The position numbers and the translations under genes are program-made. The notes below the pieces were generated by a model. It did not search any database. It was not told where the DNA came from and saw only the letters and a program-made list of their open reading frames with translations. 42,476 bases of DNA, taken from a virus. The stretch covers positions 1 through 42,476 of the IMG/VR virus record IMGVR_UViG_3300042465_004086; one strand, 5' to 3'. Shown piece after piece: positions 7,492 to 33,044 of this stretch (position 1 is its first letter; every line of letters begins with the position of its first letter).

Positions 7492-7722
7492 ATGCAGAAA
7501 CTCATTGCACTGAACGAGAACGGTCGGCGAATTGGTGAGAACCATCCGCGAGCCAAACTCCTGGACTACGAGGTTGATCAGGTCCTGGCGCTGTTGGAGG
7601 CGGGCCTGAGCTACGCCGAGGTCTCGGTCAAGTTTGAGGTCAGCAAGTCCTGCATCGCGCACATTGCGACCGGTCGGCGCCGAGGGCAGATGATTGATCG
7701 ACTGGTGCGCGTGTCCGTGTGA
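7492..7722 (+). CDS. Small HTH DNA-binding protein, 76 aa
   Basis: The start MQKLIALNENGRRIGENHPRAK at 7492 is preceded by AAAGGGA at good spacing; an in-frame ATG at 7402 would add 30 residues but lacks a ribosome site and overlaps the repeat cluster. Residues about 25-70 form a helix-turn-helix: LDYEVDQVLALLEAGLSYAEVSVKFEVSKSCIAHIATGRRRG. Proteins like this often stand directly before terminase genes. It may bind the adjacent CCTTCA repeats (inference). Its last codons contain the -35 part of the first late promoter. Confidence 0.75.
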   Translation: MQKLIALNENGRRIGENHPRAKLLDYEVDQVLALLEAGLSYAEVSVKFEVSKSCIAHIATGRRRGQMIDRLVRVSV

Positions 7723-7742
7723 TTGCAGCAGCCCGCTAAATT
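7711..7742 (+). promoter_or_regulatory. Late promoter copy 1 (TerS)
   Basis: GTGTCCGTG (7711-7719), 16 bp, CTAAATT (7736-7742). The -10-like TAAATT is 17 bp after TCCGTG. It overlaps the end of the HTH gene. A start six bases past the -10 is the ATG of the TerS gene (7749), so the mRNA may have almost no leader. Confidence 0.65.
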
Positions 7743-7748
7743 CGGGGC

Positions 7749-8180
7749 ATGGCCAATAAACCGTTTGACTGGAAACCCGTTTTCTTAACCGCGCTGCGTG
7801 AAGTGCCGGTGGTCTCCCGTGCCTGCGCTGCGGTTGGCATTGAGCGGTCGACCGCCTACCGCGCCGCCGAAATTGATTCCGCGTTCAAGGCAGCCTGGGA
7901 CGATGCGATGGAGGCGGGCATCGATAAGGCCGAGCAGGAGGCCTTTAGGCGGGCCGTGGAGGGCACCGACAAGGGTGTCTGGCACCAGGGTAGCCTGGTG
8001 GGCTCGGAGCGCGTCTACAGCGACGCCTTGCTGGCACTGTTTCTCAAGGGTCGCAGAAAAACCGTGTATGCCGAGCGCAAGGAGCTCACGGGGGCCGACG
8101 GTGCGGCATTGCCCGCGGCCCAGGTGCTGATTGCGACCGGCGTGCCGTCGCTGAGTGACGATCACAGCGACTTAGCATGA
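7749..8180 (+). CDS. terS: Terminase small subunit (TerS)
   Basis: A 143-residue protein. The N-terminal HTH (FLTALREVPVVSRACAAVGIERSTAYRAAEIDSAFKAAWDDA) is typical of small terminase subunits that recognise the packaging site; the central helix (EAGIDKAEQEAFRRAVEG) would drive ring formation; RVYSDALLALFLKGRRKTVYAER is the conserved segment before the C-terminal tail that contacts TerL. Upstream of the large subunit with one small membrane gene between. The ATG is only seven bases after a late -10 element, with no room for a normal Shine-Dalgarno beyond CGGGG. Confidence 0.82.
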   Translation: MANKPFDWKPVFLTALREVPVVSRACAAVGIERSTAYRAAEIDSAFKAAWDDAMEAGIDKAEQEAFRRAVEGTDKGVWHQGSLVGSERVYSDALLALFLKGRRKTVYAERKELTGADGAALPAAQVLIATGVPSLSDDHSDLA

Positions 8181-8416
8181 GGCTGCCCATGCTGCCCCAC
8201 GATAAGGCCAATCATCTGGCGTATGGCGCTGCGATCGCCGCCGTGATGGCGTTACTGGCGCCTCTGTGGCTGGTGCTGGTGGTTTGCGTGCTGGCCGCGG
8301 TTGGCAAAGAGATCATCGACTACAGCGGCAAAGGAACGCCCGACGTCTGGGATGCCGTGGCAACCGTGGCGGGTAGTGCTTTGGTCCTTATCCCGTTGTA
8401 CCTGCGCGCGGCATGA
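8177..8416 (+). CDS. Small membrane protein between the terminase subunits, 79 aa
   Basis: Begins in an ATGA overlap with TerS (MRLPMLPHDKANHLAYGAAIAAV) and ends in an ATGA overlap with TerL. Two hydrophobic segments (about 16-42 and 60-76) flank a conserved-looking loop GKEIIDYSGKGTPDVWD. The DKANH and KEIxD elements resemble the DUF2279/YfiM-like membrane family. It may be a holin-like or envelope-acting protein, but its location inside the terminase operon is unusual and its role unknown. Translation may start at 8189 instead (MLPHDK). Confidence 0.7.
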   Translation: MRLPMLPHDKANHLAYGAAIAAVMALLAPLWLVLVVCVLAAVGKEIIDYSGKGTPDVWDAVATVAGSALVLIPLYLRAA

Positions 8417-9741
8417 AGACAATCGACCTGGGCTACCGGCCCCGCGAGTGGCAACGCGAATGCCACCTCAACCGCAAGCGCTTTACCGTTCTCGCTTTGC
8501 ACCGCCGGGCCGGCAAGACGGAGCTCGCGCTGCGCCAGCTGCTTGACAGCGCTCTGCGGTGCCAGCTCGAGCTTGGCCTGTTCTTCTACGTCGCGCCCTT
8601 GCTGAAGCAGGCCAAGGCCATTGCCTGGGCGCGCTTAAAGCAGATCGTGGCCCCCTTGGTCCTCTGCGACCTGGCCGAGGTCAACGAGTCCGAACTCTGG
8701 GTCAGACTGCGCAGCAACGGGGCGATCATCCGCATGTACGGCGCCGACAATCCTGAAGCGATGCGCGGCGTGCGCCTCGACGGCGTGGTGATGGATGAGG
8801 TGGCCGACATAAAAGCGGAAACCTGGCGCGAGGTGCTGCAGCCGGCGCTGGCCGACCGCCTGGGCTGGGCGCTGTTCATCGGGACCCCGCACGGCATCAA
8901 CCTGTTTTCTGAGTTGTTCTTCAAGGGCCGTGATCTATCCGACTGGCACAGTGCGCTTTACACCGTGTACGACACCGAGGCGCTCAATGCCGACGAGGTT
9001 GAGCGCTACCGCCAATCGGTCGACGAGAACACGTTCAAGCGCGAGATGCTGTGCGACTTCGCCGCCTCGGGCGATGACCAGCTGATGAGCCTGACCGACG
9101 TGAACGAGGCCTGCCGGCGCCACCTGCGCAAGGACGAGTACACCTACGCCGCCAAGGTCATGGGGGTGGACCCGGCCCGCTTTGGTGATGACCGCAGCGT
9201 GATCTTCTGCCGCCAGGGTCTCTATGCCCGTCCGCCTCAGGTGTTTCGTGGGCTGGACAACATGGCACTGGCCGACAAGGTGGCGCAGCAGATCGAGCTG
9301 TTTTGCCCCGATGCAGTGTTCATCGACGCAGGCAACGGCTCCGGCGTGATCGACCGCCTGCGCCAGCTGCACCATGACGTGATCGAGGTGCACTTCAGCG
9401 GTTCGCCAAGCCAGGCCCGCTACCTCAACAAGCGTGCCGAGATGTGGTTCGAGGTGCGCGACTGGCTGCGTGCCGGTGGGGCGATCCCTGACCTGGTCGA
9501 TCTCAAGCAGGACCTGGCCGCGCCGACCTACCGCTTCACGCCGGCCGACAAGATCCAGCTCGAGAGCAAAGACGACATCAAGGGCAGAGGCCTGCCCAGC
9601 CCCGACTTAGGCGATGCGCTGGCGCTCACGTTCGCGTTCCCGGTTTACCAAGACCACAGCGCTCAGGCCAGGGCTCGGGCCATGGGCTTGCCTGTCATCG
9701 ACGAGAGCCCATTGGAATACGACCCCTACGCACGGATGTAA
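8413..9741 (+). CDS. terL: Terminase large subunit (TerL)
   Basis: A 442-residue packaging motor. The ATPase domain has Walker A HRRAGKTE (about 29-36), Walker B with DGVVMDE (about 123-129) and the coupling motif FIGTPHG. The C-terminal RNase H-like nuclease shows its acidic residues: GVDPARFGDD (about 252), VFIDAGNGSG (about 301) and PDLGDALAL (about 396). It cuts and translocates concatemeric DNA into proheads through the portal. Length is normal for the family. The packaging type (headful or cos) cannot be told from sequence alone. Confidence 0.93.
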   Translation: MKTIDLGYRPREWQRECHLNRKRFTVLALHRRAGKTELALRQLLDSALRCQLELGLFFYVAPLLKQAKAIAWARLKQIVAPLVLCDLAEVNESELWVRLRSNGAIIRMYGADNPEAMRGVRLDGVVMDEVADIKAETWREVLQPALADRLGWALFIGTPHGINLFSELFFKGRDLSDWHSALYTVYDTEALNADEVERYRQSVDENTFKREMLCDFAASGDDQLMSLTDVNEACRRHLRKDEYTYAAKVMGVDPARFGDDRSVIFCRQGLYARPPQVFRGLDNMALADKVAQQIELFCPDAVFIDAGNGSGVIDRLRQLHHDVIEVHFSGSPSQARYLNKRAEMWFEVRDWLRAGGAIPDLVDLKQDLAAPTYRFTPADKIQLESKDDIKGRGLPSPDLGDALALTFAFPVYQDHSAQARARAMGLPVIDESPLEYDPYARM

Positions 9742-9748
9742 GTCGGGG

Positions 9749-9780
9749 GTGTCCGTGTTGCCTGGCGCGCCCAGCACAAT
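9749..9780 (+). promoter_or_regulatory. Late promoter copy 2 (portal block)
   Basis: GTGTCCGTG (9749-9757), 16 bp, GCACAAT (9774-9780), with -10-like CACAAT. It starts eight bases after the TerL stop, and the start of transcription would be near 9787, ahead of the small gene and portal. Confidence 0.65.
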
Positions 9781-9809
9781 GCCGCAAAGCCCTAACTGGG
9801 AGAGCAAAA

Positions 9810-10007
9810 TTGTGCATGTCATCGCCCACTATTCCACCACCCCCGCCGCCGCCTCAGGAAATCAAACAGCCTGACAGCGCCAACCTGGCCGCCAACGCGC
9901 GCCGCAACCGTGTCGGCGGCATGATGGGCGGCTCGTTGTTGACCGGGCCTTCGGGCGTGGCTTCGGGCGCGCTAACCACTGGCAAAACTACTCTGCTCGG
10001 TCAGTAA
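9810..10007 (+). CDS. Small proline-rich virion-associated protein, 65 aa
   Basis: Reads MCMSSPTI, a run of seven prolines, then QEIKQPDSANLAANARRNR and a Gly/Thr/Leu-rich tail (LLTGPSGVASGALTTGKTTLLGQ). Related short proteins with an MC start and poly-Pro precede the portal in many podoviruses. The TTG at 9810 is six bases after GGGAGAG; the ATG at 9816 is the alternative. TAATG overlap with the portal gene indicates coupling. Role unknown, possibly a minor head-tail connector component. Confidence 0.7.
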   Translation: MCMSSPTIPPPPPPPQEIKQPDSANLAANARRNRVGGMMGGSLLTGPSGVASGALTTGKTTLLGQ

Positions 10008-11698: not shown

Positions 11699-11699
11699 C

Positions 11700-12266
11700 A
11701 TGCGCCTACGCCACGGCACGGCCTTTTTGTACGACGGGACCACGGGCGACATCGTCGGCCTGCGCGATCCGGACAACAGCGAGCTCTACCTGGTGCCAAC
11801 CACCGGCACCTGGTACTCCCTGACCGATCAGAGCGCGGACGCCGACACGGCCACGACGATGACCTGCGACACGGTGGGCTTTGAACGTGGCATCACGTTG
11901 AGCAACGATTCCCGCTTCAACATCTCCCGTCGCGCCAGCTACAACCTGCAGTTCTCTGCGGTGTTCGCCAACCCCGAGTCGAGCGCCTACGCCGTGAGCG
12001 TATGGTTGCGCGTGAATGGGGTTGACGTGGCCAGCTCCTGCACCGACTTGACCGTGCCCGACAAGCACGGCCAGGTCAGTGGCAAAGCGGTGGCGTCTTG
12101 GAACTTTTTCCTGGACTTGAACGCGGGCGATTACGTCCAGCTCGTTTGGTCGACGCCTTACAACACGATTGCCATTGAGCACACCGACGCGCGCACCGCG
12201 CCCGTGCGACCGGCGATGCCGGGGCTTATCGTCACGATCAACGAGATCAACGGCCAGCGACGCTAA
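11700..12266 (+). CDS. Probable virion structural protein, 188 aa
   Basis: Starts MRLRHGTAFLYDGTTGDIVG one base after the portal stop. The sequence is beta-rich, with the pattern SRFNISRRASYNLQFSAVFAN ... VWLRVNGVDV ... GDYVQLVWS, resembling a C1q/TNF-like jelly-roll as found in head fibres and receptor-binding tips. The same architecture recurs in the gene at 31969. I infer a decoration or fibre protein of the head or connector; no catalytic motif is present. Confidence 0.65.
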   Translation: MRLRHGTAFLYDGTTGDIVGLRDPDNSELYLVPTTGTWYSLTDQSADADTATTMTCDTVGFERGITLSNDSRFNISRRASYNLQFSAVFANPESSAYAVSVWLRVNGVDVASSCTDLTVPDKHGQVSGKAVASWNFFLDLNAGDYVQLVWSTPYNTIAIEHTDARTAPVRPAMPGLIVTINEINGQRR

Positions 12267-12272
12267 GGCATC

Positions 12273-12304
12273 GTATCCGTGAGCTAAACAGCGCGCCCTA
12301 CCAT
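12273..12304 (+). promoter_or_regulatory. Late promoter copy 3 (capsid block)
   Basis: GTATCCGTG (12273-12281), 16 bp, CTACCAT (12298-12304). One mismatch in the upstream box, a perfect downstream box. The GTG initiation codon of the next gene is seven bases past the -10, as with copy 1, so a leaderless message is possible. Confidence 0.7.
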
Positions 12305-12310
12305 GCGCGC

Positions 12311-12631
12311 GTGGCTACCTACGACGACCCAACAGACCTGAAGCGCCAGGAGCGCGATGCCGAAGCCGATGAGGCGGGGGCGCGCGACCGCCGACGCAAA
12401 GAGCTTGAGGATCTCCGTTGGTTGCTAGGCCACCCGCAAGGGCGACGCATCATCAGTCGCATGCTGGAGGAAGCCGGCGTATTCCGCTCATCGTTCAATC
12501 ACTCAGGGTCCGTGATGGCCTTCAGTGAGGGCAAGCGGCACATAGGCCTGTTTCTGACGGCTGAACTGCTTGAAGCAGCGCCCGACGGGTACATGAAAGT
12601 CCTCAAGGAATTTAAGGCCAGAGATGAATGA
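12311..12631 (+). CDS. Bbp19-like head-region protein
   Basis: A 106-residue protein resembling Bordetella phage BPP-1 Bbp19: LEDLRWLLGHPQGRRIISRMLEEAGVFRSSFNHSGSVMAFSEGKRHIGLFL is the diagnostic stretch. The N-terminus is a charged coiled helix (DLKRQERDAEADEAGARDRRRKELE). It starts with GTG at 12311, has no visible Shine-Dalgarno, and its 3' end overlaps the scaffold gene by eight bases. Exact function is unknown; position suggests prohead assembly. Confidence 0.78.
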   Translation: MATYDDPTDLKRQERDAEADEAGARDRRRKELEDLRWLLGHPQGRRIISRMLEEAGVFRSSFNHSGSVMAFSEGKRHIGLFLTAELLEAAPDGYMKVLKEFKARDE

Positions 12632-13229: not shown

Positions 13230-13242
13230 AAGGTAATTCACC

Positions 13243-14235: not shown

Positions 14236-14268
14236 CCGGCCGTCACCGAACACTAAAGGAAACACATC

Positions 14269-14745: not shown

Positions 14746-14757
14746 TGAGGTGACGGC

Positions 14758-14994: not shown

Positions 14995-15015
14995 TCGGCG
15001 GTCGCTGACTGCATC

Positions 15016-15047
15016 AAGGGGTACCCGCACAACGGGTACCCCTTTTT
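15016..15047 (+). terminator. Rho-independent terminator after the head genes
   Basis: AAGGGGTACCCG (15016-15027) and CGGGTACCCCTT (15033-15044) form a 12-bp stem with a CACAA loop and a TTTTT tail. Late promoter copy 4 begins six bases downstream, giving a terminator-promoter boundary between head and tail units. Confidence 0.88.
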
Positions 15048-15052
15048 GTTGC

Positions 15053-15084
15053 GTGTCCGTGGCGCGCAGCGTGCCTTCTACACT
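15053..15084 (+). promoter_or_regulatory. Late promoter copy 4 (tail block)
   Basis: GTGTCCGTG (15053-15061), 16 bp, CTACACT (15078-15084). It is fully intergenic, directly after a terminator. The expected start near 15091 leaves room for the AGGAGA ribosome site of the tail gene. Confidence 0.8.
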
Positions 15085-15104
15085 GCCGACATCAGGAGAA
15101 TGTC

Positions 15105-15740
15105 ATGGCCTCAGTCGCCCAGATCTGCAACATGGCCCTGAGCCATATCGGCTCAGAAGCCCGCGTCTCAAGCATTAGCCCGCCCGACGGCTCGGTCGAG
15201 GCCGGCCACTGCGCGATTTTCTACGACCTGGCACGCACCGAAATGCTCGAGCCCGGCAACTGGGCCTTTGCACTGAAGCGCCAAGCGCTCGCCCAGGTCA
15301 CCAACCCGAGCACGATCTGGGCCTACGCCTACGCCAAACCTTCCAACTGCCTGCGCGCGCTGCGCATCCTGCGCCCCTCGATCGCGGTGACCGTGTTCAC
15401 CCAAGACCTGGTGGTCGAGCCCCACACCGACGACCGCGACAGCGCGCCCTACGACATCGAGGGTCAGGTGATCCTGACCAACGAGCCCGACGCGGTGCTG
15501 GTGTACGTGCAGGACGTGACCGACTCGACCAAGTTCACGGCGAGCTTCACCAGCACCTTCTCGTACCTGCTCAGTTCCTACCTCGCCGGCCCCATCATCA
15601 AGGGCACCGACGGCATGCGCATCGGCGACTCGATGCGCCAGCGTGCCATGGCCCTCGCTGATGTGTCCGCCACGGCGAGTGCCAACGCCTCGAGCGTGGA
15701 CAACCTGCCGCAGCCCACCCTCTTGGCGGTGCGCGCATGA
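15105..15740 (+). CDS. Tail tubular protein A-like adaptor (T7 gp11-like)
   Basis: A 211-residue protein. The N-terminal helical part (VAQICNMALSHIGSEARVSSISPPDGSVEAGHCAIFYDLARTEML) is the signature of podoviral gp11-like adaptors, which form a ring below the portal. WAFALKRQALAQV and the later RIL..DLVVEPHTDDRD beta region also fit. It overlaps the nozzle gene by ATGA. Confidence 0.85.
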   Translation: MASVAQICNMALSHIGSEARVSSISPPDGSVEAGHCAIFYDLARTEMLEPGNWAFALKRQALAQVTNPSTIWAYAYAKPSNCLRALRILRPSIAVTVFTQDLVVEPHTDDRDSAPYDIEGQVILTNEPDAVLVYVQDVTDSTKFTASFTSTFSYLLSSYLAGPIIKGTDGMRIGDSMRQRAMALADVSATASANASSVDNLPQPTLLAVRA

Positions 15741-18187: not shown

Positions 18188-18641
18188 GGTCCTGATCCGA
18201 CCCACCGCGCCCGGCGACGTCGAGCACCTCATCGCAAACCTTCGCCCCTCAGACCTTGCCGAGTGCGAGGCCTACGGGCGCCCCGACGTCGAGGCAGGCA
18301 TCAAGGCCAGCGTGCGCCGCTCGCTGCTGTGCTGGAGCGGGTGGGTGGACGGTGAACTCGCCGCGATCCTGGGCGTCGCGCCTATCGACATGCTGAACGG
18401 CATTGGCTCCCCCTGGATGCTTGGCACGCCGGTGCTGGATGCGAACCAGCGTATCCTTGTCCGCAGCACGCCCGAGTACATTGCCCAAATGCTAAAGGCG
18501 TTCCCGCACCTGGTGAATTTTGTGCACGCGCGCAACACCACCAGTGTGCGCTGGCTGCGCCGTCTGGGGTTCACGCTGCACGCAGCGGTCCCCTACGGCG
18601 CGCTGGGTGAACCCTTCCACCCGTTTGAACTGCGAGCCTGA
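18180..18641 (+). CDS. GNAT-fold virion protein (T7 gp13-like, DUF2833)
   Basis: A 153-residue protein starting with GTG at 18180 inside the nozzle gene end. IRPTAPGDVEHLIANLRPSDLAE and WVDGELAAILGVAPID plus FPHLVNFVHARNTTSVRWLRRLGF follow the acetyltransferase-like fold found in T7 gp13-type proteins. In that family it assists assembly of the internal core; enzymatic activity is not established. Order nozzle-gp13-gp14-gp15-gp16 is T7-like. Confidence 0.8.
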   Translation: MAEVLIRPTAPGDVEHLIANLRPSDLAECEAYGRPDVEAGIKASVRRSLLCWSGWVDGELAAILGVAPIDMLNGIGSPWMLGTPVLDANQRILVRSTPEYIAQMLKAFPHLVNFVHARNTTSVRWLRRLGFTLHAAVPYGALGEPFHPFELRA

Positions 18642-18643
18642 CC

Positions 18644-19222: not shown

Positions 19223-19223
19223 T

Positions 19224-19652: not shown

Positions 19653-21408
19653 CGACCGCCAGGTCCGCACTCAGGCACTGCAGCCTGTCTTCCAGAACAC
19701 GCCCGACGTCAGCTCGGGCGCCCGCGCGCTGGCGCAAGGCCTGGGCCAGGTGGCCGACGTCGCGGATCGCATCGATCTGCGCGCTGCCGAAAGCAAGGCC
19801 AACGAGGTCGACACCCAACTGACCCGCGCGTGGGACCAGTGGGAAGACGACAACCGAGGCAAGTACACCAACCAAGCCGCGGACGGCTACACCAAAGCGG
19901 TGGATGCCTGGTGGAAAGACGCCGCCAAGACTTACGGCGGGAGTCTTGACGCTCGCGCCCAGGCCATGGTCGGCAAGACACTGTCGCGCCGCCAGACGCT
20001 TGCGCTAGAGCAGGCCGGCAAGCACGAGTTCACTGAAAAGGAGCGGTACGCCGACAGCACGACCGAGGCCGCCGCTAACACCGCCACCGTCAACGCGCTC
20101 AAGACGGGAGACTACGCGGGTGAAGCCCAGCGCATCCGTGAGCTGACCGACGAGCAGGGGCGGCGCAAGAACTGGGACAAGGACCAGCGCGACGCCGCGC
20201 GCAACGCGCGCCTCGGCCAGTTCAACACCGCCGTCATCGCGCAGCTCGCCGAGAAGGACGCCGCCGCGGCGCAGGTCTACTTGAACGGTGCGATCGAGCG
20301 CGGCGAGATCAAGCCCGATCAGCAGCCCCGCCTGGAGGCGATCGTCAAGAGCGAGGCCGACAACCAGTTCGCTACGCAGAAGGCCGCTGAGCTCGCGACG
20401 CTTTCCCTCAAAGAGCAGCTGGCCGAGGCGGCCAAGATTACCGACCCGCAGCGCCGCGAAAAGACGATCACCCAGATCAAACTCAACACCGCCTTGGTCC
20501 GAGAGGCCGAGGCCGAGGCCGAGCGCCAAGCCTCCGACCAGGCCTGGCAGATGTTTTCGCGCGGGCAAAAGATCCCCGAGACGATCCTCTCCAGCATGAA
20601 CGGGCGCGAGCGCGCGCAGCTCGCCGAATCGCAGCGCACCCGCGCTGATCGCCTGGCTGCCGGCACACCGGTAAAGACCAACATGCTTGCCTACATCGAC
20701 GTCCGCGAAAAGCTCGCCCGGGGTGAGACCGTGGACCTGCGCGCTTACACCGAGAAAATTGGCAAGGCCGAAATGGAGCAGCTGCTCGACATCCAGGGGG
20801 CCGTGCGCACCGGGGGCGTCAAGCAGGACAGCATGCTTACCGACGAGGGACGCATCAACGCTGCGATCGTGAGCTTGGGTATCGACAAGCGCAAGAAGCC
20901 CGAGCAGGCCGCCATGATCACCAACGAAATCGACCGCCGCGTGCGCTCTGCCTCCGCTGCCAAGGGCGGCAAGGACCTGACCGCAGACGAAAAGCAGGGC
21001 ATCGTCGACCGCGTTGTGCTCGACAAGGTCTTTGTCTCTGAATTTGGCCGCGATCCACAAAAGCCTTTGATTTTGCTTACGCCGGAGGAGCAAAAGAACG
21101 CCTACGTTGAGGTCAATGGTGAAGAAGTAAAACTCTCATCCATCCCGCTAAATGACCGCCAGCAGATCATCGCCTCGCTGCAACGCAGGGGCGAACCTGT
21201 TTCCGAGCAAGCGATCGCTGAGGTCTACGTGCGGGTGAAGAAACCCGCCGCTGCACCTGTTGCTGCACCTGTGGCCGCACCCGCTGCAGCACCCCAAACC
21301 CGTGCCCCGGCCCCAGGCGCAGCGCTTAGGCCGCCTTCGATCTACGCATCCGCGGAAGAGTGGGCGGCATACCGCGCAGCTCAAGCGCAGAAAGCTGCAA
21401 AACAATGA
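19630..21408 (+). CDS. Internal virion protein (T7 gp15-like position), 592 aa
   Basis: The start MPTVPLYNDRQVRTQALQP at 19630 lies inside the end of the HNH gene; the upstream in-frame opening is HNH sequence in another frame. The protein is long, helical and charged (ALEQAGKHEFTEKERYADST; KEQLAEAAKITDPQRREKTI), with a Pro/Ala-rich C-terminal linker (PAAAPVAAPVAAPAAAPQ). This matches ejected core proteins of podoviruses. It overlaps the giant protein gene by ATGA. Confidence 0.78.
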   Translation: MPTVPLYNDRQVRTQALQPVFQNTPDVSSGARALAQGLGQVADVADRIDLRAAESKANEVDTQLTRAWDQWEDDNRGKYTNQAADGYTKAVDAWWKDAAKTYGGSLDARAQAMVGKTLSRRQTLALEQAGKHEFTEKERYADSTTEAAANTATVNALKTGDYAGEAQRIRELTDEQGRRKNWDKDQRDAARNARLGQFNTAVIAQLAEKDAAAAQVYLNGAIERGEIKPDQQPRLEAIVKSEADNQFATQKAAELATLSLKEQLAEAAKITDPQRREKTITQIKLNTALVREAEAEAERQASDQAWQMFSRGQKIPETILSSMNGRERAQLAESQRTRADRLAAGTPVKTNMLAYIDVREKLARGETVDLRAYTEKIGKAEMEQLLDIQGAVRTGGVKQDSMLTDEGRINAAIVSLGIDKRKKPEQAAMITNEIDRRVRSASAAKGGKDLTADEKQGIVDRVVLDKVFVSEFGRDPQKPLILLTPEEQKNAYVEVNGEEVKLSSIPLNDRQQIIASLQRRGEPVSEQAIAEVYVRVKKPAAAPVAAPVAAPAAAPQTRAPAPGAALRPPSIYASAEEWAAYRAAQAQKAAKQ

Positions 21409-24400
21409 CAAACCCCTACGACGAAGCTGTTGATGCCTGGAAAGAAAACCAGCCGAAGCCAGCGGGCGCCCCCGCGGTCAACCCCTACGACGCGGCCGTC
21501 ACCGAGATTGCCACCGAACGGCAGCAACGGGTTCGCACCGTCTTCGAGAAGGCGCTAGAAACAAATCCCGATCAGGCGGCAGAGGCGCAGAAGCTGGCCA
21601 ACAGTACCGGCTTGTCTTTGAATTTTGTCGAGCGCAACCAGGAAGAAGTGCGTCGCAAACAGCAGGCACGCATGTTGGACCTGGCGCGCATGGCGCAAGA
21701 GTCGCCAATTCTTGCGCGTCAGCTGGTTGATCCGTCGTTCACCAAGCAGGCGCACGATGACATCGGCAACCTGGCCAACGTCGAGCGGACCTTTACGGGT
21801 ACGCTCAAAGACATTGGCACCGTCGCGATGAAGGGTGCCGTTGGTTTGCCGCAAGCGATTGTCGGCCTGGCCGACCTGGGTATTGCTCTTTCCCCGGTTT
21901 CACTTGCGGTAAGGGGAATGCGTGGTGAACCCCTTTTGGGTGGCGGCTATCTTGGCAAAGGGCTTCAAGCTCTTGGCGTTGACTTCAAACGCACGCAGGA
22001 AATTCTGTCTGGCGAGGAGGGCGAGACCCTGCTGAGTTATAGCCCCGCCCAGCAGGCTGCAAACAAGCGCGTCGCGGATGTAGAGGGATTTACGCAGACC
22101 CTTTCCGCGATGCTAGAGAATCCCAGCACGATCGCCACTTTGGTAGGGGAGTCCTTGCCTCAGATGTTAGGCGGGGCGGCTATCGGCAGAACGGTACTGG
22201 GTCTCGGTGCAAAGGCCGTGGGCCCGGCGATGATCGGGCCCAATCTCCCAGGACTGATGGCGCGCCAGTTTGGCGAGAAGACAGCAACCCTGGTGGCCAG
22301 CGCGTTCGGTGAGGGTGCAATCGCTGGGGGCTACGCCGCCGAGCAGTTTCGTGGTGAGAACGCCGACGGACTGATTGGTGCCAAGGAAACTCTTGCTGCA
22401 CTAGGTACCGGTGCAGGCACCGCGCTGTTCAGTGGTTTCGGTGGGCGCGTCGCTCGCCGCCTGGGCATCGAGGACATCGACACCGCGCTGGTGTCACGGG
22501 GCCTGAACCCTGAGGTCGCCGAGACAATCAAGCGGGGATTTGTTTCGAGCCTGGTCAAGAGTGGCATTTCCGAGGGGCTGTTTGAGGAAATGCCACAGTC
22601 CATCCAAGAGCAGATGTGGCAAAACTGGGCCAACGACAAGCCGCTTGGCCAAGGGGTTGGAAAGGCCGCGGCGCAGGGTGTTGTTGCCGGCTTCGCGATG
22701 GGCGGAGGTTTCCAGGCAATCAGCCGTGTGCGCGACCATTACAGCGAGATCAACACCGCGCAAACCAGCGCCGAGCAACTTGTTGACCTGTTCAACGCGG
22801 CCGCGCCGTCAGCGCTTCGCGAGCGCAACCCCGAACAATTCCGCACTGTCGTCCAGGCCATGGCCGACAACGCCGAGGGTGCACCCTCGGAGATCTACAT
22901 CGATGCCGAGGTCCTGAACCAGCTGGCGCCGGAGGTCCTGGCCCAGCTGCCGCAGTCCGTGCGCGATCAGATTCCCGACGCGCTTGCGGCCAACGATGTG
23001 GTCTCGATCCCGACGGGTGACGTGCTGACGATTGCGCCAGGCACGCCCCTCGAGCAGGTACTGGTCGAGAATGGCCGCGTGGGTGACCCACGGGCAATGA
23101 CCCAGGTCGAGGCCAACCAGGCCGCCGAAAAGGCGCAGGAGTTTCTTGCGCAGGAAGCTCAGAAAGTAATCCAGCAGGCCGCGGACCAGCAGGCCATGCA
23201 AGAGTCGAGCGACCGAGTGAAGCAGGGCGTGCTCGACCAGCTCAACACCGCGGGCCGGTTCCGTGCGCAGGTGAACGAGGCCTACGCCACCTGGACCGCT
23301 GCGTTCTACACCACCATGGCTGGCCGCATGGGCATGACGCCCGAGCAGATGGCCGAGAAGTATCCGCTGCGCATCGCGGCTCAGACGGGGCAGGGTGGGG
23401 TGCTCAACGCCGGCGGTGGCACGCTGGCCGACGTCACTGCGCAGTGGGACGCGGCCAGCATCACCGGCGACGTCTATGAAAATCGCGGCGTCATCACCTT
23501 GTCGCGCATCGTCGTGCCTCAAGGCCAGCGCGAGCAGGGTACCGGCACCGCTGCGCTGCAAGCCTTGGTTGACTACGCCGACCGCACGGGCCAGCGCGTC
23601 GTGCTCTCGCCGTCGGCTGACTTTGGCGGCAACAAGAAACGGCTGATGGAGTTCTACAAGCGCTTCGGGTTTGTAGAGAACAAGGGGCGCAACAAGGATT
23701 TCGCGGTCTCGGAGACGATGATCCGCGAGCCGCAGCAGGTGCTCAACCAGACGCCCGGCGCGCTGCCCGAGTGGTCGTTGGAAAAAGCCAAGACGCGCGT
23801 CACAGACGCCATCAAGAAGGCCGCCATCGCGCTCTCGCCGAAAGCCTCGCTGGCGCGTCGCAACTACGAAAAACTCGACGCCATCTTCAAGAAGGTCCCT
23901 GACCCCCTGGCAAGCGAGGACGCCTGGCGCAAGTTCATGTCGTTGCTGGTGGCCGACAGCAGCGTGCTTGGCGTGCCCTACAACGCGCTCAAGTACGCGC
24001 AAGATCCCCAGGCCGTGGCCGACTATCTCTCGCGCCTGCGCCCCGACCAGCTCGCCTCGCGCCGTGCAGGTTTCGAGCTCGGTGCAAAGATCCGCCAGGA
24101 ATACATCGAAGGCCGCGCCACGCCGGTGATCACGGGGCGCCTGCTGTTGTGGGCCATGCTCTCGCGCAAGGCCGGCGCCTACCCGCACGAGGCCGCCTAC
24201 ATGGACCTGGTCAACGGTGGCGTCGACCAGTGGATTGAGAAGGCCGTCAACGGCACCTGGACTGAGGCCGACAGCGAAGGCTACGTCAAATGGTCGTCGG
24301 AGTTCATGGCGAGCAAGAAGGGCGGCGTCAGCCCTTCCGCGGGCGTGACCTCCAACGCCAACGACTTCGGCCGCATCCTGCTGACCAAGATGTCTCAGAA

Positions 24401-27400
24401 GGACGAGAACGGCGTCACGCAGCTCACGCGCCTGCACAACTTCATCGCCGACCAAAACGTGTCGACCGACCAGGTGCGTCGCGAATTCTTCGCGCTGGGC
24501 GATAGCCTGGGCATCCAGAACAAGGTGCTGTCGTTCGCGCTGCTGGTAACGGGTCGCTGGGACACGCTGGTCCTCGACCGCGTGCAATTCACTCACCTGT
24601 GGGGCGACCAGTACCGGGAGCGCGCAGGCCAGCGCAACATCTACGACAACGGCCTGGCCACCGCGGGAAAGGGTCACTTTGGATTGGCCGTGTACGAGGC
24701 GCTGGCCCGCGGCATGACACAGTCGGTGCAAAAGGGGTACGAGCTCGCCGGCCTGACCGATCAAGGCGATGGCACGCTTGGTGCGTTCCACTGGGATTCG
24801 TGGTTGATTGAATCGTCGCAGGCCATCGGCCACCCGACGATTGAGGCGCTGGACACCCAGACGCCACGCCCCGACCTGGCTGTGCGCCAGGGCAAATTTG
24901 ACACCTACGGCTACAACTTCGAGTACCGTGCCGACGGCCAGTATCAGATCCCCCTGCTGGACGGCAGTGGGTATATAATTTTAGCACCTGCTGAAGCTGC
25001 TGAGTTTCAGGGCAGGATCAGTGACCCCAAAGAAGGGGTGGTGCCAAAAGACTTCAAGGTCTCGCAGAATAAGGCGAGCCCATGGGTTGATGCCGAAGGA
25101 GTAAACCGTGGCAGATACGACGAAATCCTCAACGAGTACGGTCGACGCGCTGATGCAGCAGATGTCGCTCCTGCCGGGCTTGCCGATGCAGGCGGACCCC
25201 TTCAACAGCGTGCAACCGATGCCGGGCGAACAGAACCCGCAGCAGACACCGCCGCAGGACAAGACGACGGAGCTCTAAACCAAGGCCCCCGCGGCACGTT
25301 TAACCCAAGCACCCTCGAACTGGCGCTCAACGAGAACGCCGACCTCTCCACGTTCCTGCACGAGACCGGCCACTTCTTCCTCGAGGTGATGGCCGACCTG
25401 GCGACACAGCCAGGGGCCCCCGCGGATATTCAGCAGGACATGGCCGCGCTGATGAAGTGGTTCGGCGTGCCCGACCTCGCAACCTGGAACAGCTACACCC
25501 TGGACGAGAAGCGCCCGTACCACGAGCGCTTTGCAGAATCCTTCGAGCAGTACCTCCTTGAGGGCAAAGCCCCCAGCCTGGAGCTGCAGCCGCTGTTCCG
25601 TAAGTTCCGCGCGTGGATGCTCAACGTCTACAAGTCGATCAAAGCGTTCGTGGACAGCCGCCAGGGCGCCACCGATATCCAGTTGTCCGACGAAGTGCGC
25701 CAGGTGTTCGACCGGATGCTGGCCAGCGAGGCGCAGATCGCCGAGGCCAACGAGGTCGCAGGCTTGCTGCCTGATCAGGACGCCGATGCCGAGGCGGTGG
25801 AGAGACTCAGCGCCCGGTCACTGCGTGATCTGAAGTGGACCGTGAACGCCCGCAGCAAGGCGATCAAAGCATTGCAGAAGCAGGCCGCCGAATTGCGCAA
25901 GAGCGTGGAGGAGGAGGTCACTGCCGAGGTTGAGGCCCAGCCGGTCTACGCCGCGCGCAAGTTCCTGCGCACCGACACCAAACTCTCAATCGCAGCACTT
26001 GAAGAAGCCTACACCGGCGAGGGCGACCGCTACGCACTGCTGGACTGGAAGCCACTGGTACAACAGAAGCTCGCCGGCAAGGACGGCGCACACCCCGACA
26101 TCGTCGCTGATATGTTCGGGTTTAAGAACGGCGACGAATTGGTGCAGGCCTTGTTAACCGCCGAGCCTATTGCCGATGTGATCGCCGGCTTGACCGACCA
26201 GCGCATGCTCGAGCAGCACGGCGACCTGGTCGACCAGCGCGCCATCGAGCAGGCTGCAAACGAAGCGGTCCACAACGAGGCCCGCGCCCGCTCGCTGGCC
26301 ACTGAACTCAAGAGCCAGGCCGAAGCGATCAACGCCCGTACCGACACCGGTCAGCTCAACGCGGCAGGCAACAAGATCACGGTCAACGCGCTGATGGAAG
26401 CGGCCAAACAGTTTGCCGCCAACGTGGTCGCAGGCACTCCCTTGCGCGACCTCAAGAGCAAAACCGCGCAGCACACGGCCGCCGAGCGACGCGCCGGCAA
26501 GCGCTGGCAAGAGCACACCGCCAAGGGCGAGACGGCCGAGGCAATTAAAGCCAAGCAGGACCAGGTGCTCAACAACGCCGCCGCCAAGGCTGCGCTGGAA
26601 GCCCAGGCCGAAATGCGCCAGATCCTCGAGTTCTTCAAGCGCGTCTACAAGGACGGCAACGAGAAGATCGTCGAGAAGGGCCGCGACCCGGACGTGGTCA
26701 ACGCGGCTCGCGCGGTGCTCGGTGCCTACGGCGCAGCACCCCGGGCCAGCAAGAACGCGATCGAGTACATGGCCCTGGTCGAGAAGAACGACCCGGCAAT
26801 GTTCGCAGCCCTGCAGCCCAGTGTGCAGGGTGCGCTCAACATGGCGCAGCCCCTCGAGTCGCTGACGATGGAGGAGCTGCGCGGCCTGCACGAAGAGATC
26901 CAGGCCATGTGGCACCTGGCCAAGCGCTCGCGAATGATGGAAGTCGACGGCAACCTGATCGACATGCAAGAGGCCGAGGACGATCTCCAGGCCCGCATGC
27001 AGGCGATCGGCGTGCCCGACTCCATCCCGGGAGAGTCCAGCGCCATCACGCCCTCGGAGAAGGCCAAGCGGACGCTGCAGTTCGCCGGGTCCCTTCTGCG
27101 CCGCACGGAACAGTGGGCTGCAGGGATGGGCAATGAGTTCACCCGGCTGGTGTTCCAGCCCGTCAAGCAGGCCGCCGACACCTACCGCGCCGAACGGGTG
27201 AAGTACCGCAAACGCTATCAGGCATTGATCGACACGGTGGCGCCAGCCCTCAAGAAGGGATTGATCGAGGCGCCCGAGCTTGGCTACACCTTCGGCAAGG
27301 GGCACAACGGCATCGGCCACGCCGAGCTGCTGCACGCGATCCTGCACACGGGCAATGAGAGCAACAAGCGCAAGCTGCTGCTGGGCCGTGGCTGGGCGAC

Positions 27401-29135
27401 AGAGAACGCCGACGGGACGATGGACACCAGCAAGTGGGACGCCTTCGTCAAGCGCGCGCAAGACACGGGGCTCCTGACCAAGGCACATTACGACTTCGCT
27501 CAGGGCGTGTGGAATCTGCTGGAGGAGACCAAGCCTGCAGCGCAAAAGACTCACCGCGACGTGTTCGGGCGTTACTTTGCCGAGGTCACTGCCGACAGTT
27601 TCGATACCCCGTTCGGCACCTACGCCGGCGGCTACGTTCCCGCCCAGGCAGACCCGCGCATTGTTCAGGACGCAGCGCTGCGCGACCTGGCCACGACCGA
27701 AAACGAGAACATGTCGTTCTCGTTCCCGAGCACCAATCGAGGATTCACCAAGGGCCGGGTCGAGTACAACCGCCCCCTGATGCTGGACCTGCGCACGATC
27801 GGCCAGCACCTCGACAAGGTGCTGCTGTTCACGCACATGGAACCCGCGGTGCGCGATGTCAACAAGCTGCTCTCGCGCAAGGGCGTGAGCTACAGCCTGG
27901 GCCGCATTGACCCGACGATCTACGCCGGCATGCTGACGCCCTGGCTCAACCGCAGCGCGCGCCAGATCGTCGAGACCCCGATCGTGGGCGATGGTGGCAT
28001 TTCTCGCGTGCTTTCCGTCGCCAGGTCTAGGGCAGGTATGGCGCTCATGTTTGCCAACATCAGTAACACCCTGCAGCAGACAACCGGCTTTCTGACCGCG
28101 ATGGCCAAGCTGAAGGCCGACGGCCTTGAGTCGCAGCTCACTCGGTCGACCGCGATGTTCATCACCAACCCGCGAAAGATGGCCCGAGAAGTGGCGGCTG
28201 CCAGTCCTTTCATGGCGTCGCGCATGGCCAACGAGATCGCGGCAATGAACGGAGCGATGGACGATATCCTCTTGGATCCCAGCCTGTACGAGAAGAGCCA
28301 GGCCTGGGCACAGAAGCACTCCTATTTCCTGCAGTCGGCCATGGCCAACACCATGGAGCCGATCATCTGGACCGCCGGCTACAACGCGGCTCTGGCCAAG
28401 AACATGGACGATGCCGAGGCGGTGAAGTACGCCGATTCGCTCATCCGCCAAACGCAGGGTTCTACCTTGCCGGAGGACGTGAGCCGCATCGAGACGGGCC
28501 CGGCTTACGCTCGAGTGTTCACGCAGTTCGTGGGCTACTTCAACATGATGGCCAACACGAACGCGACCGCGCTCAAGCAAATTGCACAGGAGCAGGGCCT
28601 CAGGAAGGGCGCCGGTAAAGCCCTGGGAATTCTCACGCTTGGCATGATGGCCCCGCTTTGGATGGCGGAGGCGATCGCCATCGCAATGCGCGGGGGCCCT
28701 GAGGACAAGGACGACGACGGCTACCTGGACGACTGGCTCGCTGCCGTGTTTGGCATTGGCACGATCAAGGGCACGATGGCGATGGTCCCGTTCATCGGGC
28801 AGCTGGTCAACGCGTCCATCAACCGGTTCAACAGCAACCCTGCAGACGACAAGATGAGCTTGTCGCCGGCGGTGAGTTTGCTGGAGTCCGCGGTGGGCGT
28901 GCCCATGGACGTCTACAAAGCCATCGCGGACCCCGAGAAGCTCAACGCCCGCAACGCCGTTCGCGACGTGGCAAGCGCGGTCAGCATCGTGACAGGGCTC
29001 CCCGCTATCGCCTTCGCCAGGCCGCTCGGCTACCTGGCCGGCATGGCCGACAACCGCATCGAGCCGACTGGCCCGGCGGACCTGGCCCGTGGCCTGGTGA
29101 CGGGCAGCGCAAGCCCGGAGAGCAAGCAACGCTGA
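21405..29135 (+). CDS. Giant polyvalent internal virion protein (gp16-like position) with GNAT and metallopeptidase-like domains
   Basis: A 2,576-residue protein starting MTNPYDEAVDAWKENQPKPA in an ATGA overlap. Domains in order: helical N-terminus with hydrophobic segments (about 135-300); a GNAT acetyltransferase-like domain (about 685-790, LSRIVVPQGQREQGTGTAAL and FYKRFGFVENKG); a helical region (about 810-1150); a Pro/Ala/Asp-rich linker (about 1235-1290); a zinc metallopeptidase-like motif HETGH (1319-1323) in STFLHETGHFFLEVMADL; long coiled helices; and a hydrophobic C-terminal zone near 2410. Large polyvalent proteins of this type are carried in podoviral heads and ejected into the host. 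No lysozyme-type transglycosylase domain is obvious. Enzymatic roles are inferred from motifs. Confidence 0.85.
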   Translation: MTNPYDEAVDAWKENQPKPAGAPAVNPYDAAVTEIATERQQRVRTVFEKALETNPDQAAEAQKLANSTGLSLNFVERNQEEVRRKQQARMLDLARMAQESPILARQLVDPSFTKQAHDDIGNLANVERTFTGTLKDIGTVAMKGAVGLPQAIVGLADLGIALSPVSLAVRGMRGEPLLGGGYLGKGLQALGVDFKRTQEILSGEEGETLLSYSPAQQAANKRVADVEGFTQTLSAMLENPSTIATLVGESLPQMLGGAAIGRTVLGLGAKAVGPAMIGPNLPGLMARQFGEKTATLVASAFGEGAIAGGYAAEQFRGENADGLIGAKETLAALGTGAGTALFSGFGGRVARRLGIEDIDTALVSRGLNPEVAETIKRGFVSSLVKSGISEGLFEEMPQSIQEQMWQNWANDKPLGQGVGKAAAQGVVAGFAMGGGFQAISRVRDHYSEINTAQTSAEQLVDLFNAAAPSALRERNPEQFRTVVQAMADNAEGAPSEIYIDAEVLNQLAPEVLAQLPQSVRDQIPDALAANDVVSIPTGDVLTIAPGTPLEQVLVENGRVGDPRAMTQVEANQAAEKAQEFLAQEAQKVIQQAADQQAMQESSDRVKQGVLDQLNTAGRFRAQVNEAYATWTAAFYTTMAGRMGMTPEQMAEKYPLRIAAQTGQGGVLNAGGGTLADVTAQWDAASITGDVYENRGVITLSRIVVPQGQREQGTGTAALQALVDYADRTGQRVVLSPSADFGGNKKRLMEFYKRFGFVENKGRNKDFAVSETMIREPQQVLNQTPGALPEWSLEKAKTRVTDAIKKAAIALSPKASLARRNYEKLDAIFKKVPDPLASEDAWRKFMSLLVADSSVLGVPYNALKYAQDPQAVADYLSRLRPDQLASRRAGFELGAKIRQEYIEGRATPVITGRLLLWAMLSRKAGAYPHEAAYMDLVNGGVDQWIEKAVNGTWTEADSEGYVKWSSEFMASKKGGVSPSAGVTSNANDFGRILLTKMSQKDENGVTQLTRLHNFIADQNVSTDQVRREFFALGDSLGIQNKVLSFALLVTGRWDTLVLDRVQFTHLWGDQYRERAGQRNIYDNGLATAGKGHFGLAVYEALARGMTQSVQKGYELAGLTDQGDGTLGAFHWDSWLIESSQAIGHPTIEALDTQTPRPDLAVRQGKFDTYGYNFEYRADGQYQIPLLDGSGYIILAPAEAAEFQGRISDPKEGVVPKDFKVSQNKASPWVDAEGVNRGRYDEILNEYGRRADAADVAPAGLADAGGPLQQRATDAGRTEPAADTAAGQDDGALNQGPRGTFNPSTLELALNENADLSTFLHETGHFFLEVMADLATQPGAPADIQQDMAALMKWFGVPDLATWNSYTLDEKRPYHERFAESFEQYLLEGKAPSLELQPLFRKFRAWMLNVYKSIKAFVDSRQGATDIQLSDEVRQVFDRMLASEAQIAEANEVAGLLPDQDADAEAVERLSARSLRDLKWTVNARSKAIKALQKQAAELRKSVEEEVTAEVEAQPVYAARKFLRTDTKLSIAALEEAYTGEGDRYALLDWKPLVQQKLAGKDGAHPDIVADMFGFKNGDELVQALLTAEPIADVIAGLTDQRMLEQHGDLVDQRAIEQAANEAVHNEARARSLATELKSQAEAINARTDTGQLNAAGNKITVNALMEAAKQFAANVVAGTPLRDLKSKTAQHTAAERRAGKRWQEHTAKGETAEAIKAKQDQVLNNAAAKAALEAQAEMRQILEFFKRVYKDGNEKIVEKGRDPDVVNAARAVLGAYGAAPRASKNAIEYMALVEKNDPAMFAALQPSVQGALNMAQPLESLTMEELRGLHEEIQAMWHLAKRSRMMEVDGNLIDMQEAEDDLQARMQAIGVPDSIPGESSAITPSEKAKRTLQFAGSLLRRTEQWAAGMGNEFTRLVFQPVKQAADTYRAERVKYRKRYQALIDTVAPALKKGLIEAPELGYTFGKGHNGIGHAELLHAILHTGNESNKRKLLLGRGWATENADGTMDTSKWDAFVKRAQDTGLLTKAHYDFAQGVWNLLEETKPAAQKTHRDVFGRYFAEVTADSFDTPFGTYAGGYVPAQADPRIVQDAALRDLATTENENMSFSFPSTNRGFTKGRVEYNRPLMLDLRTIGQHLDKVLLFTHMEPAVRDVNKLLSRKGVSYSLGRIDPTIYAGMLTPWLNRSARQIVETPIVGDGGISRVLSVARSRAGMALMFANISNTLQQTTGFLTAMAKLKADGLESQLTRSTAMFITNPRKMAREVAAASPFMASRMANEIAAMNGAMDDILLDPSLYEKSQAWAQKHSYFLQSAMANTMEPIIWTAGYNAALAKNMDDAEAVKYADSLIRQTQGSTLPEDVSRIETGPAYARVFTQFVGYFNMMANTNATALKQIAQEQGLRKGAGKALGILTLGMMAPLWMAEAIAIAMRGGPEDKDDDGYLDDWLAAVFGIGTIKGTMAMVPFIGQLVNASINRFNSNPADDKMSLSPAVSLLESAVGVPMDVYKAIADPEKLNARNAVRDVASAVSIVTGLPAIAFARPLGYLAGMADNRIEPTGPADLARGLVTGSASPESKQR
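25108..25278 (+). CDS. Candidate overlapping gene inside the giant virion gene, 56 aa
   Basis: In the +1 frame relative to the host gene, GTG 25108 is preceded by AAGGAG at a six-base gap, an ideal ribosome site, and the frame runs 56 codons to TAA (MADTTKSSTSTVDALMQQMS... ending PQDKTTEL). Its composition (Met, Gln, Pro, Ser, Thr) reads like a natural protein, while the host frame here is a low-complexity Ala/Asp/Gly linker. The surrounding bases include the AT-rich GTATATAATTTTAGCA (24971). Chance overlap is possible in a GC-rich genome, so confidence is modest. Confidence 0.4.
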   Translation: MADTTKSSTSTVDALMQQMSLLPGLPMQADPFNSVQPMPGEQNPQQTPPQDKTTEL

Positions 29136-29136
29136 T

Positions 29137-29168
29137 GTGTCCGTGAGCGGAGCTCCCACGCCTACCAT
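29137..29168 (+). promoter_or_regulatory. Late promoter copy 5 (tailspike)
   Basis: GTGTCCGTG (29137-29145), 16 bp, CTACCAT (29162-29168). It sits two bases after the giant gene stop. The initial transcribed sequence, AACCCGTA (29175-29182), is shared with copy 6. Confidence 0.82.
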
Positions 29169-29193
29169 TCTGGTAACCCGTAGGAGCTCCGCT
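29146..29193 (+). repeat. 11-bp inverted repeat around the tailspike promoter start
   Basis: AGCGGAGCTCC (29146-29156) and GGAGCTCCGCT (29183-29193) are perfect reverse complements flanking the -10 and start site. The right arm contains the TAGGAG ribosome site of the tailspike gene. As DNA it could be a regulator site. In read-through RNA it would hide the ribosome site, but in RNA started here the left arm is absent. Confidence 0.7.
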
Positions 29194-29195
29194 GC

Positions 29196-31967: not shown

Positions 31968-31968
31968 A

Positions 31969-32439
31969 ATGCTTAAAGCCTTCAGGTCAATTCTTCCAAT
32001 GCCAGTTTCTCAAGGAGGAACTGGCACGGACAACCCTCCGACAGTACAGGCCTATTCTTCTGTCGCCACCACGCTGGCGCAGAACGTTTACACAAAGCTC
32101 ACCGTCAACAACGAGGACTTTGATACGTCTGGCGCTTTTGATGTTGCCAACTCAAGGTTCCAGCCGACCGTTGCTGGCTACTACTTGATCAACAGCCAGA
32201 TGTATGCGCCTGGCACTGCCTACGCTTCGATGAACACGTACAAAAACGGAAGCTACACGCGAACGATTCAAGGTGGATACAGCGCAGGCATTGATTACCC
32301 TTTGATCGTTACAGGAACTTCGCTTGTGTATTTGAACGGGTCAACCGACTACATTGAGCTGTACGGCATTCAAGGCGGTGTCGCGTCAGTCAACGCAACA
32401 TCGGTCATTTTCCAAGCAACTTTGGTGCGGGGTGCATGA
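31969..32439 (+). CDS. C1q/TNF-like fibre-tip or receptor-associated protein, 156 aa
   Basis: Starts MLKAFRSILPMPVSQGGTGT one base after the tailspike stop, with a CAAAGGAAAA ribosome site. The remaining sequence is a C1q-like jelly-roll (VYTKLTVNNEDFDTSGAFDVANSRFQPTVAGYYLINSQ; YIELYGIQGG). Such small domains often sit at the end of fibres as separate receptor-binding subunits. The base composition is clearly lower in GC than the virion genes, a sign of exchange. Confidence 0.72.
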   Translation: MLKAFRSILPMPVSQGGTGTDNPPTVQAYSSVATTLAQNVYTKLTVNNEDFDTSGAFDVANSRFQPTVAGYYLINSQMYAPGTAYASMNTYKNGSYTRTIQGGYSAGIDYPLIVTGTSLVYLNGSTDYIELYGIQGGVASVNATSVIFQATLVRGA

Positions 32440-32612
32440 TGAACCTCTACGAACAGATCACACAGATATACCCCGAACTCAAAGGCGATGCGCTTGCGTT
32501 CTCGACCACCATCATCTTGCAAGATGACAAAGACGGCCGTGGTGAATACATCGCCAAGTGGGACCATCCCACTCTTGAAAGACCAACAGCCGAACAACTG
32601 AAAGGTGCATGA
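32436..32612 (+). CDS. Tail fibre assembly-type small protein, 58 aa
   Basis: ATGATGAAC start in an overlap with the previous gene. The sequence MMNLYEQITQIYPELKGDA...IILQDDKDGRGEYIAKWDHPTLERPTAEQLKG has the common pattern of XkdW-like/fibre-associated small proteins found right after receptor-binding genes (YPEL, D-GxGxYIxxW, PT-EQL). It is probably a chaperone or minor fibre component. Assigned by pattern and neighbourhood only. Confidence 0.68.
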   Translation: MMNLYEQITQIYPELKGDALAFSTTIILQDDKDGRGEYIAKWDHPTLERPTAEQLKGA

Positions 32613-32613
32613 C

Positions 32614-32955
32614 ATGGACAACGCATTCAAACCCCTGGGCAACACGGTTGCCATCACCGCTGCCGCCACTGCGCCCACGGGCGTCCAGGCCGGCGCCAGC
32701 TCCACCGCCAAGGCGGCGTTTGCCGGCCAGTACCGCATCATCAACGCGGGCAGCGTGACCGTGCACCTGGGCGTCGGCGCCAGTGCTGCAGCGGCTGCTG
32801 CCGCGGCCGTCGCTGCGACCTCTGGCAGCCCGGCTGCCGGCATCCCGCTGGTGCCTGGCGCCGTCGAGATTTTCAGCTTCGACGTCGACACTTACTTCAG
32901 CGGCCTGGCCGCAAGCAACACGACGATCTACATCACGCCTGGCACCGGCTTGTAA
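32614..32955 (+). CDS. Probable virion structural protein, 113 aa
   Basis: Starts MDNAFKPLGNTVAITAAATAPTG. The rest is a beta-rich, Ala-rich domain (QYRIINAGSVTVHLGVGASAAAAAAAA, then PLVPGAVEIFSFDVDTYFSGL), a pattern known from small phage decoration or tail-associated proteins. No enzymatic motif. It is the last gene before a terminator, ending the receptor-binding unit. Confidence 0.65.
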   Translation: MDNAFKPLGNTVAITAAATAPTGVQAGASSTAKAAFAGQYRIINAGSVTVHLGVGASAAAAAAAAVAATSGSPAAGIPLVPGAVEIFSFDVDTYFSGLAASNTTIYITPGTGL

Positions 32956-32979
32956 GCCCCACTTAAAAGGTCGCTCGAC

Positions 32980-33005
32980 AGCCCGCCCAGTGCGGGCTTT
33001 TCTTT
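32980..33005 (+). terminator. Rho-independent terminator after the receptor-binding genes
   Basis: AGCCCGC (32980-32986) pairs with GCGGGCT (32992-32998), loop CCAGT, tail TTTTCTTT. Late promoter copy 6 starts eight bases later, the same terminator-promoter arrangement as at 15016-15084. Confidence 0.85.
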
Positions 33006-33012
33006 GCCTGCG

Positions 33013-33044
33013 GTGTCCGTGTCAGCGGCACGCACACCTACCAT
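33013..33044 (+). promoter_or_regulatory. Late promoter copy 6 (lysis block)
   Basis: GTGTCCGTG (33013-33021), 16 bp, CTACCAT (33038-33044). It is fully intergenic. The start near 33051 is followed by AACCCGTA as in copy 5. It would drive the holins, endolysin and second spike. Confidence 0.82.

Follow-up and report, generated by a model that had tools for sequence, protein, structure and literature searches.

The stretch analysed here, called the window, is the whole of a virus record of IMG/VR (IMGVR_UViG_3300042465_004086; 42,476 bp), in which 127 bp are repeated at both ends, so that the genome is probably complete and circular. Its packaging, head, tail, tailspike and lysis genes are preceded by six copies of a gapped, promoter-like motif, and a gene for a small helix-turn-helix (HTH) protein, HTH77, lies ahead of them. 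The motif consists of a nine-base box (GTRTCCGTG; mostly GTGTCCGTG) and a second, seven-base box downstream. A first-pass annotation had described six plus-strand copies in which the 9-mer and the 7-mer are always 16 bp apart, and a renewed search recovered all six at the same positions with the same spacing (Table 1), with zero copies on the minus strand. When GTGTCCGTG-N16-CTACCAT was searched for with up to three mismatches, seven matches were found in the window against 0.23 expected from shuffled sequences (shuffle maximum 2); the motif is real. The seventh match, at 15501, lacks the core and was attributed to chance. Another candidate, at 18451-18482 (GTATCCTTG-N16-GTACATT), recurs across the clade but lies within a conserved GNAT-like coding sequence and was not counted; its conservation is probably that of the coding sequence, the alternative being an internal promoter. 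Two copies, at 15053 and 33013, do follow terminator-like stems as annotated, whereas the description of all six as intergenic does not extend to site 1, which overlaps the last codons of the open reading frame ending at 7722.

Table 1. Putative late promoters and associated features of the window, with the boxes found in phage BPP-1.
Feature	Position	Strand	Description
HTH77	7492..7722	+	76-amino-acid helix-turn-helix protein, directly 5' of TerS; proposed late activator
HTH77 codons A56, H57	7657..7662	+	Within predicted recognition helix (residues 52-60 of the model); co-vary with box bases 3 and 5 across lineages
Late promoter 1 (putative)	7711..7742	+	GTGTCCGTG-N16-CTAAATT; overlaps HTH77 3' end; TerS ATG at 7749, 6 nt past -10 box
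Late promoter 2 (putative)	9749..9780	+	GTGTCCGTG-N16-GCACAAT; upstream of small open reading frame (~9810) and portal gene
Late promoter 3 (putative)	12273..12304	+	GTATCCGTG-N16-CTACCAT; GTG at 12311, 6 nt past -10 box; ahead of scaffold/protease and capsid genes
Late promoter 4 (putative)	15053..15084	+	GTGTCCGTG-N16-CTACACT; 3' of terminator-like stem; ahead of tail genes (15105)
Late promoter 5 (putative)	29137..29168	+	GTGTCCGTG-N16-CTACCAT; ahead of tailspike gene (29196); spacer is 5' arm of hairpin
Late promoter 6 (putative)	33013..33044	+	GTGTCCGTG-N16-CTACCAT; 3' of terminator-like stem; ahead of lysis genes
Inverted repeat round promoter 5 -10 box	29146..29193	+	AGCGGAGCTCC...GGAGCTCCGCT; 3' arm covers tailspike ribosome-binding site (folding prediction)
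BPP-1 box GTGCCCGTG	26293	-	Before TerS
BPP-1 box GTGCCCGTG	24131	-	Before bbp24
BPP-1 box GTGCCCGTG	20746	-	Before bbp19
BPP-1 box GTGCCCGTG	6184	-	Before bbp9

The distance between the -35-like and -10 boxes is 17 bp at all sites of the window and at nearly all sites of its relatives, as in sigma70-type promoters (15-19 bp, usually 17). The second box is a sigma70-type TAnnnT at five of the six sites and CACAAT at the sixth (9749); the annotated form TAnnAT therefore does not hold throughout, although the 17-bp spacing does. The upstream box was correctly annotated as unlike TTGACA: the hexamer is TCCGTG in the window, other lineages have unrelated hexamers of their own, and none of them has a TTGACA-like -35 element. 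An ATG or GTG was found exactly 6 or 7 nt past the -10 box at 43% of 202 sites, compared with about 3% per offset at random, and at least one such site was present in 56 of 63 lineages; the window cases are TerS and the gene at 12311. These fixed distances fit leaderless mRNAs transcribed from the start codon and give independent support to the -10 assignment, so that transcript 5' ends may be placed from the -10 box together with the start-codon distance.

The gapped-motif scan of related genomes that had been proposed in the first-pass annotation was carried out, and the motif was found with the same spacing at homologous places. Among viral contigs, GTGTCCGTG-N16-CTACNNT matched at least 119 stretches, many of them by chance, and a large share of the matches were located at corresponding gene borders in related phages. 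In 20 related records, GTRTCCGTG-N16-NNANNNT was present in 78 copies distributed over 18 records, on one strand only in each, and this was the HTH77 strand wherever that gene was present; the reversed control pattern gave a single match. The spacer was 16 bp in every clear case among the relatives save one (G010), which was one base shorter. Alignment of 68 sites from 12 genomes showed two fixed short boxes and a near-random spacer. In the -10 box, A-11 and T-7 were invariant (68 of 68), partly by construction because the search pattern required those positions, while position -12 was T in 54 and C in 12 of the 68. Megablast of the region against isolated phages returned zero matches.

The reading frame of HTH77 extends from 7402, with the conserved start at 7492. 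Only two DNA-binding proteins, HTH77 and a Cro-like protein, were found in all 11 related genomes bearing the motif, and HTH77 alone was also found in two more distant genomes, MW202640 and MW202722. The HTH77 proteins of these two are 36-40% identical to that of the window, and GTGCCCGTA or GTACCCGTA occurs in them at corresponding gene borders, again with 16-bp spacing. The Cro-like protein was rejected as activator for its absence from these two genomes with their diverged motif, and HTH132, HTH136 and a CI-like protein for their absence from several motif-bearing genomes. Two further matches were set aside: in G012, which has no late boxes, the homologue forms the HTH part of an HNH enzyme, and the match in Vibrio phage K67 comes from a genome that encodes a tape-measure protein and is not a podophage of this kind. 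The structure model of HTH77, with a mean predicted local distance difference test score (pLDDT) of 90.2, contains helices 25-36, 41-48 and 52-60, and the position of the last places residues 56 and 57 within the predicted recognition helix. Just 5' of the gene, at ~7275-7400, CCTTCATCCTTCAC recurs in repeats and inverted repeats, perhaps a control region for the proposed activator.

Two sets of 80 loci each were assembled by portal-based searches, one from viral contigs and one from bacterial genomes, with many Betaproteobacteria among the latter; both were searched without bias for 9-mers that recur ahead of a -10 box. In many HTH77-bearing loci a box specific to the lineage was found that conforms to GTRnnnnTR, such as GTGCGCGTA, GTGCACGTA, GTGTACATA and GTATACGTA. 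The 9-mer groups were mostly of chance size on reverse strands and in those loci of the genome collection where HTH77 was not detected; one exception, L212, is a fragment truncated upstream. The tabulation favoured GTR-type 9-mers, and the results on box variation thus cover positions other than 1 and 2. When mutual information was calculated for 518 column pairs in 44 non-redundant representatives, box base 5 with residue 57 ranked first (z 11.2) and box base 3 with residue 56 second (z 8.9). Gln56 was accompanied by A3 in 7 of 7 cases, A3 occurring otherwise in 1 of 37 (p 2e-7), and Asp57 by G5 in 14 of 14, G5 occurring otherwise in 4 of 30 (p 3e-8). After lineages had been collapsed at 60% and 50% identity, the pair of base 5 and residue 57 remained first, and that of base 3 and residue 56 dropped to third and fifth, respectively. 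On the portal tree, all six gains or losses of Gln56 fell on branches with a box 3 change in the same direction (0 of 5000 random placements), and five Asp57 changes coincided with G5 (2 of 5000). Recognition of the box by HTH77 is well supported by these comparisons, and box and protein appear to have changed together in evolution.

The residue-to-base rules were set before any cultured phage was examined, and seven of eight bases were predicted correctly in four isolates. For BPP-1, whose homologue Bbp27 (Ala56, Lys57) is annotated as an 'endonuclease', G3 and C5 were predicted, and the GTGCCCGTG boxes on its late (minus) strand match. The prediction of A3 and C5 for zth2-2 (Gln, Lys) was likewise matched by GTACCCGTA. 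For Caulobacter phage SR18 (Arg, Asp), G3 and G5 were predicted and GTGCGCATG/A was seen, but its -10 boxes are atypical; this box had escaped the TAnnnT filter and was located by reading the upstream regions for the predicted box with the residues already known, which makes the case less blind. In Limnohabitans phage DC33 (Lys, Lys) C5 was correct, whereas A3 was present where G3 had been predicted. A large phage family that includes BPP-1 appears, from its sequences, to switch on its late genes by a very small DNA-binding protein, which recognises its own version of a nine-letter box in place of the -35 element. Two side observations concern these isolates. At 26293 of BPP-1 (L362) the predicted leaderless TerS start falls inside the annotated gene, so that the annotated start at 26318 may be too early. 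DC33 (L363, PQ492659) is placed in Inoviridae by GenBank; it is short-tailed, and its genome resembles MW202722-type podophages.

Several results weigh against recognition of the box through residues 56 and 57. In an ancestry control, the two HTH77 pairs exceeded all 458 variable portal columns, whose best z values were 5.9 for box 3 and 9.5 for box 5, compared with 9.4 and 10.3 for HTH77, the latter being that of residue 57; the phylogenetic background is nevertheless real, with one portal column close to residue 57 in z. In information on box 5 the margin is clear, though small in z (0.75 for residue 57, 0.46 for the best portal column). The links of Lys or His57 with C5 and of residue 63 with box 7 were not significant on the portal tree. 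Exceptions to the rules were found at L215, L237, L238, L325 and L205, and in DC33 with its A3 without Gln; G006, G008 and L060, with an RW helix, still pair with GTGTCCGTG; and some HTH77-bearing loci, e.g., L207, L254 and L320, gave no clear box.

The six sites are probably late promoters of one regulon in which HTH77 binds the box, replaces the -35 contact and recruits the host sigma70-type polymerase. With its single HTH, HTH77 would occupy the 9-bp box (about -38 to -30), residue 56 of the recognition helix reading base 3 and residue 57 base 5 by direct contact. Touching a surface of the polymerase or of its sigma factor, it would stand in for the -35 contact and bring host RNA polymerase with the primary (sigma70-type) factor to the TAnnnT or CACAAT box, 17 bp away as is normal. 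The genes for packaging, head and tail, for the tailspike and for lysis would be activated together, HTH77 having accumulated before late transcription. The first-pass annotation had proposed late promoters with a non-standard -35 box that need either a phage activator or an alternative sigma factor, and the comparative evidence supports this and favours the activator. A host alternative sigma factor, reading GTGTCCGTG and the -10 box with no phage protein, would account for the sigma-like 17-bp spacing and TAnnnT box, and no phage sigma factor or RNA polymerase was recognised among the window proteins scanned, as had been annotated. However, the box varies with residues 56 and 57 of HTH77; portal relatives without detected HTH77 mostly lack a comparable repeated box; and two Limnohabitans elements carry different boxes (L226, GTGCGCGTA; DC33, GTACCCGTA), which a host factor does not explain. 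A phage activator is preferred on account of the co-variation and of this difference, and the host factor is distinctly improbable. HTH77 could also act as a repressor of the late promoters, which host polymerase alone would use after its removal: the box overlaps the -35 region, and co-variation reveals recognition but not the sign of regulation. A repressor role is nevertheless improbable, since no lineage has a box like TTGACA and the box drifts freely along with HTH77, so that polymerase alone would have no -35 contact. Moreover, the fixed 16-bp spacing to the -10 box is required by an activator working through polymerase and not by a repressor, and the HTH77 gene lies just ahead of the late block, as do the genes of late activators in other temperate phages.

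Use of the motif as the promoter of a phage-encoded RNA polymerase was considered for the 2591-amino-acid virion protein encoded at 21360-29135, which has a large polyvalent protein domain (LPD22) and an N-terminal match (residues 244-639) to positions 211-612 of the 3406-residue virion RNA polymerase profile of PHROG (E 8.6e-12). This explanation is very improbable: LPD22 is the only Pfam domain found, with no Pfam polymerase domain and no match to a solved structure, the protein has no T7-type motif B or other polymerase motifs and a single HD dipeptide, and promoters of phage-encoded polymerases of this kind have a layout unlike the gapped -35/-10 arrangement. Equally hard to credit is that the repeats are some other element between genes, such as a recombination site, packaging site or mobile repeat. 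The sites do lie at module borders, where genes are exchanged, and the boxes persist while TerL varies among relatives, but conservation is limited to two short boxes with a near-random spacer, start codons stand exactly 6-7 nt past the -10 box at 43% of 202 sites, and the box bases follow the recognition helix.

In phage P2 one small activator, Ogr, serves several dispersed late promoters with the host sigma70 polymerase, and the sites of Ogr and of Mu C, which show dyad symmetry, are placed either next to the -35 region or upstream of it. HTH77, as proposed, would likewise serve several dispersed late promoters as one small activator, but its 9-mer box is asymmetric and occupies the -35 position. 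Mu C, too, is one small phage activator that works at several dispersed late promoters with host sigma70 polymerase (PMC4461284). At T4 middle promoters, where sigma is appropriated by MotA and AsiA, a box for a phage protein replaces the -35 element, and the sigma70 -10 element and the host polymerase are kept (PMC6755090). The HTH77 box similarly stands in the -35 place with the -10 box kept, and co-varies with a phage HTH. In contrast to the two-domain MotA, which works with AsiA at a box centred near -30, HTH77 is one 76-amino-acid domain with no partner identified, its targets are late genes and its box differs by lineage. A phage factor replacing the -35 element is thus known from T4, from which the single-domain protein and the box position here differ. 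Profile searches listed no MotA homology and no Mor/C or Ogr family for the window HTH77. No account of this promoter class, of a transcriptional role for Bbp27 or of late control in this podophage group was found in the open-access literature searched, and subscription papers may contain one.

A fold search with HTH77 gave zero fold matches with E up to 0.001, and its best structural neighbours were the HTH domains of Tc3, resolvase, GcrA and Hin (Z ≤ 5.8), a comparison that, for the modelled structure, points to the common HTH fold and nothing more. Several members of the family match Sigma70_r4, HTH_7 and HTH_23, while the window protein itself matches weak generic HTH models of Pfam only. 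Profiles and neighbours thus recall sigma70 region 4 and the resolvase-Hin HTH; unlike sigma factors, HTH77 lacks region 2 and consists of a single three-helix HTH. Relatives also match PHROG profiles for 'endonuclease' and 'HNH endonuclease', as well as the GENHPRAKL...HTH stretch found in HNH enzymes of phages. The DNA-binding HTH module is all that HTH77 has in common with HNH homing endonucleases: no nuclease domain was found by domain search, 76 amino acids leave no room for one, and the protein co-varies with a promoter box. HTH77 may derive from such a module. That it is a one-domain surrogate of sigma region 4 from that source, and defines a widespread class of late activators that substitute for the -35 element and whose residue-to-base code can be read, is put forward tentatively; if so, transcription from the BPP-1 promoter at 6184 would also extend to the diversity-generating retroelement, with its tail fibre, mtd, avd and reverse transcriptase genes, a type of element for which this phage is the model. 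Activation by HTH77, if true, names the late-gene switch of a large podophage group including BPP-1 and predicts leaderless late mRNAs. Dozens of lineages in which protein and promoter change together constitute a natural experiment from which a recognition code can be read in sequence, and a route from a homing-endonuclease module to a transcription factor is suggested.

At the tailspike promoter, pairing of the spacer with the downstream ribosome-binding site reached an arm score of at least 8 in 11 of 20 homologous sites, compared with 4% of shuffles. The predicted hairpin would hide this site in read-through RNA and expose it in RNA begun at promoter 5, an arrangement known for some T4 late genes. 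Elsewhere in the window, divergent CI-like and Cro-like HTH genes (3495-4316) suggest a temperate phage, but the proteins scanned included no recognisable integrase. TerL (8413-9741) is in many relatives replaced by a TerL of 25-27% identity or is unmatched, and HTH77 and the promoters persist.

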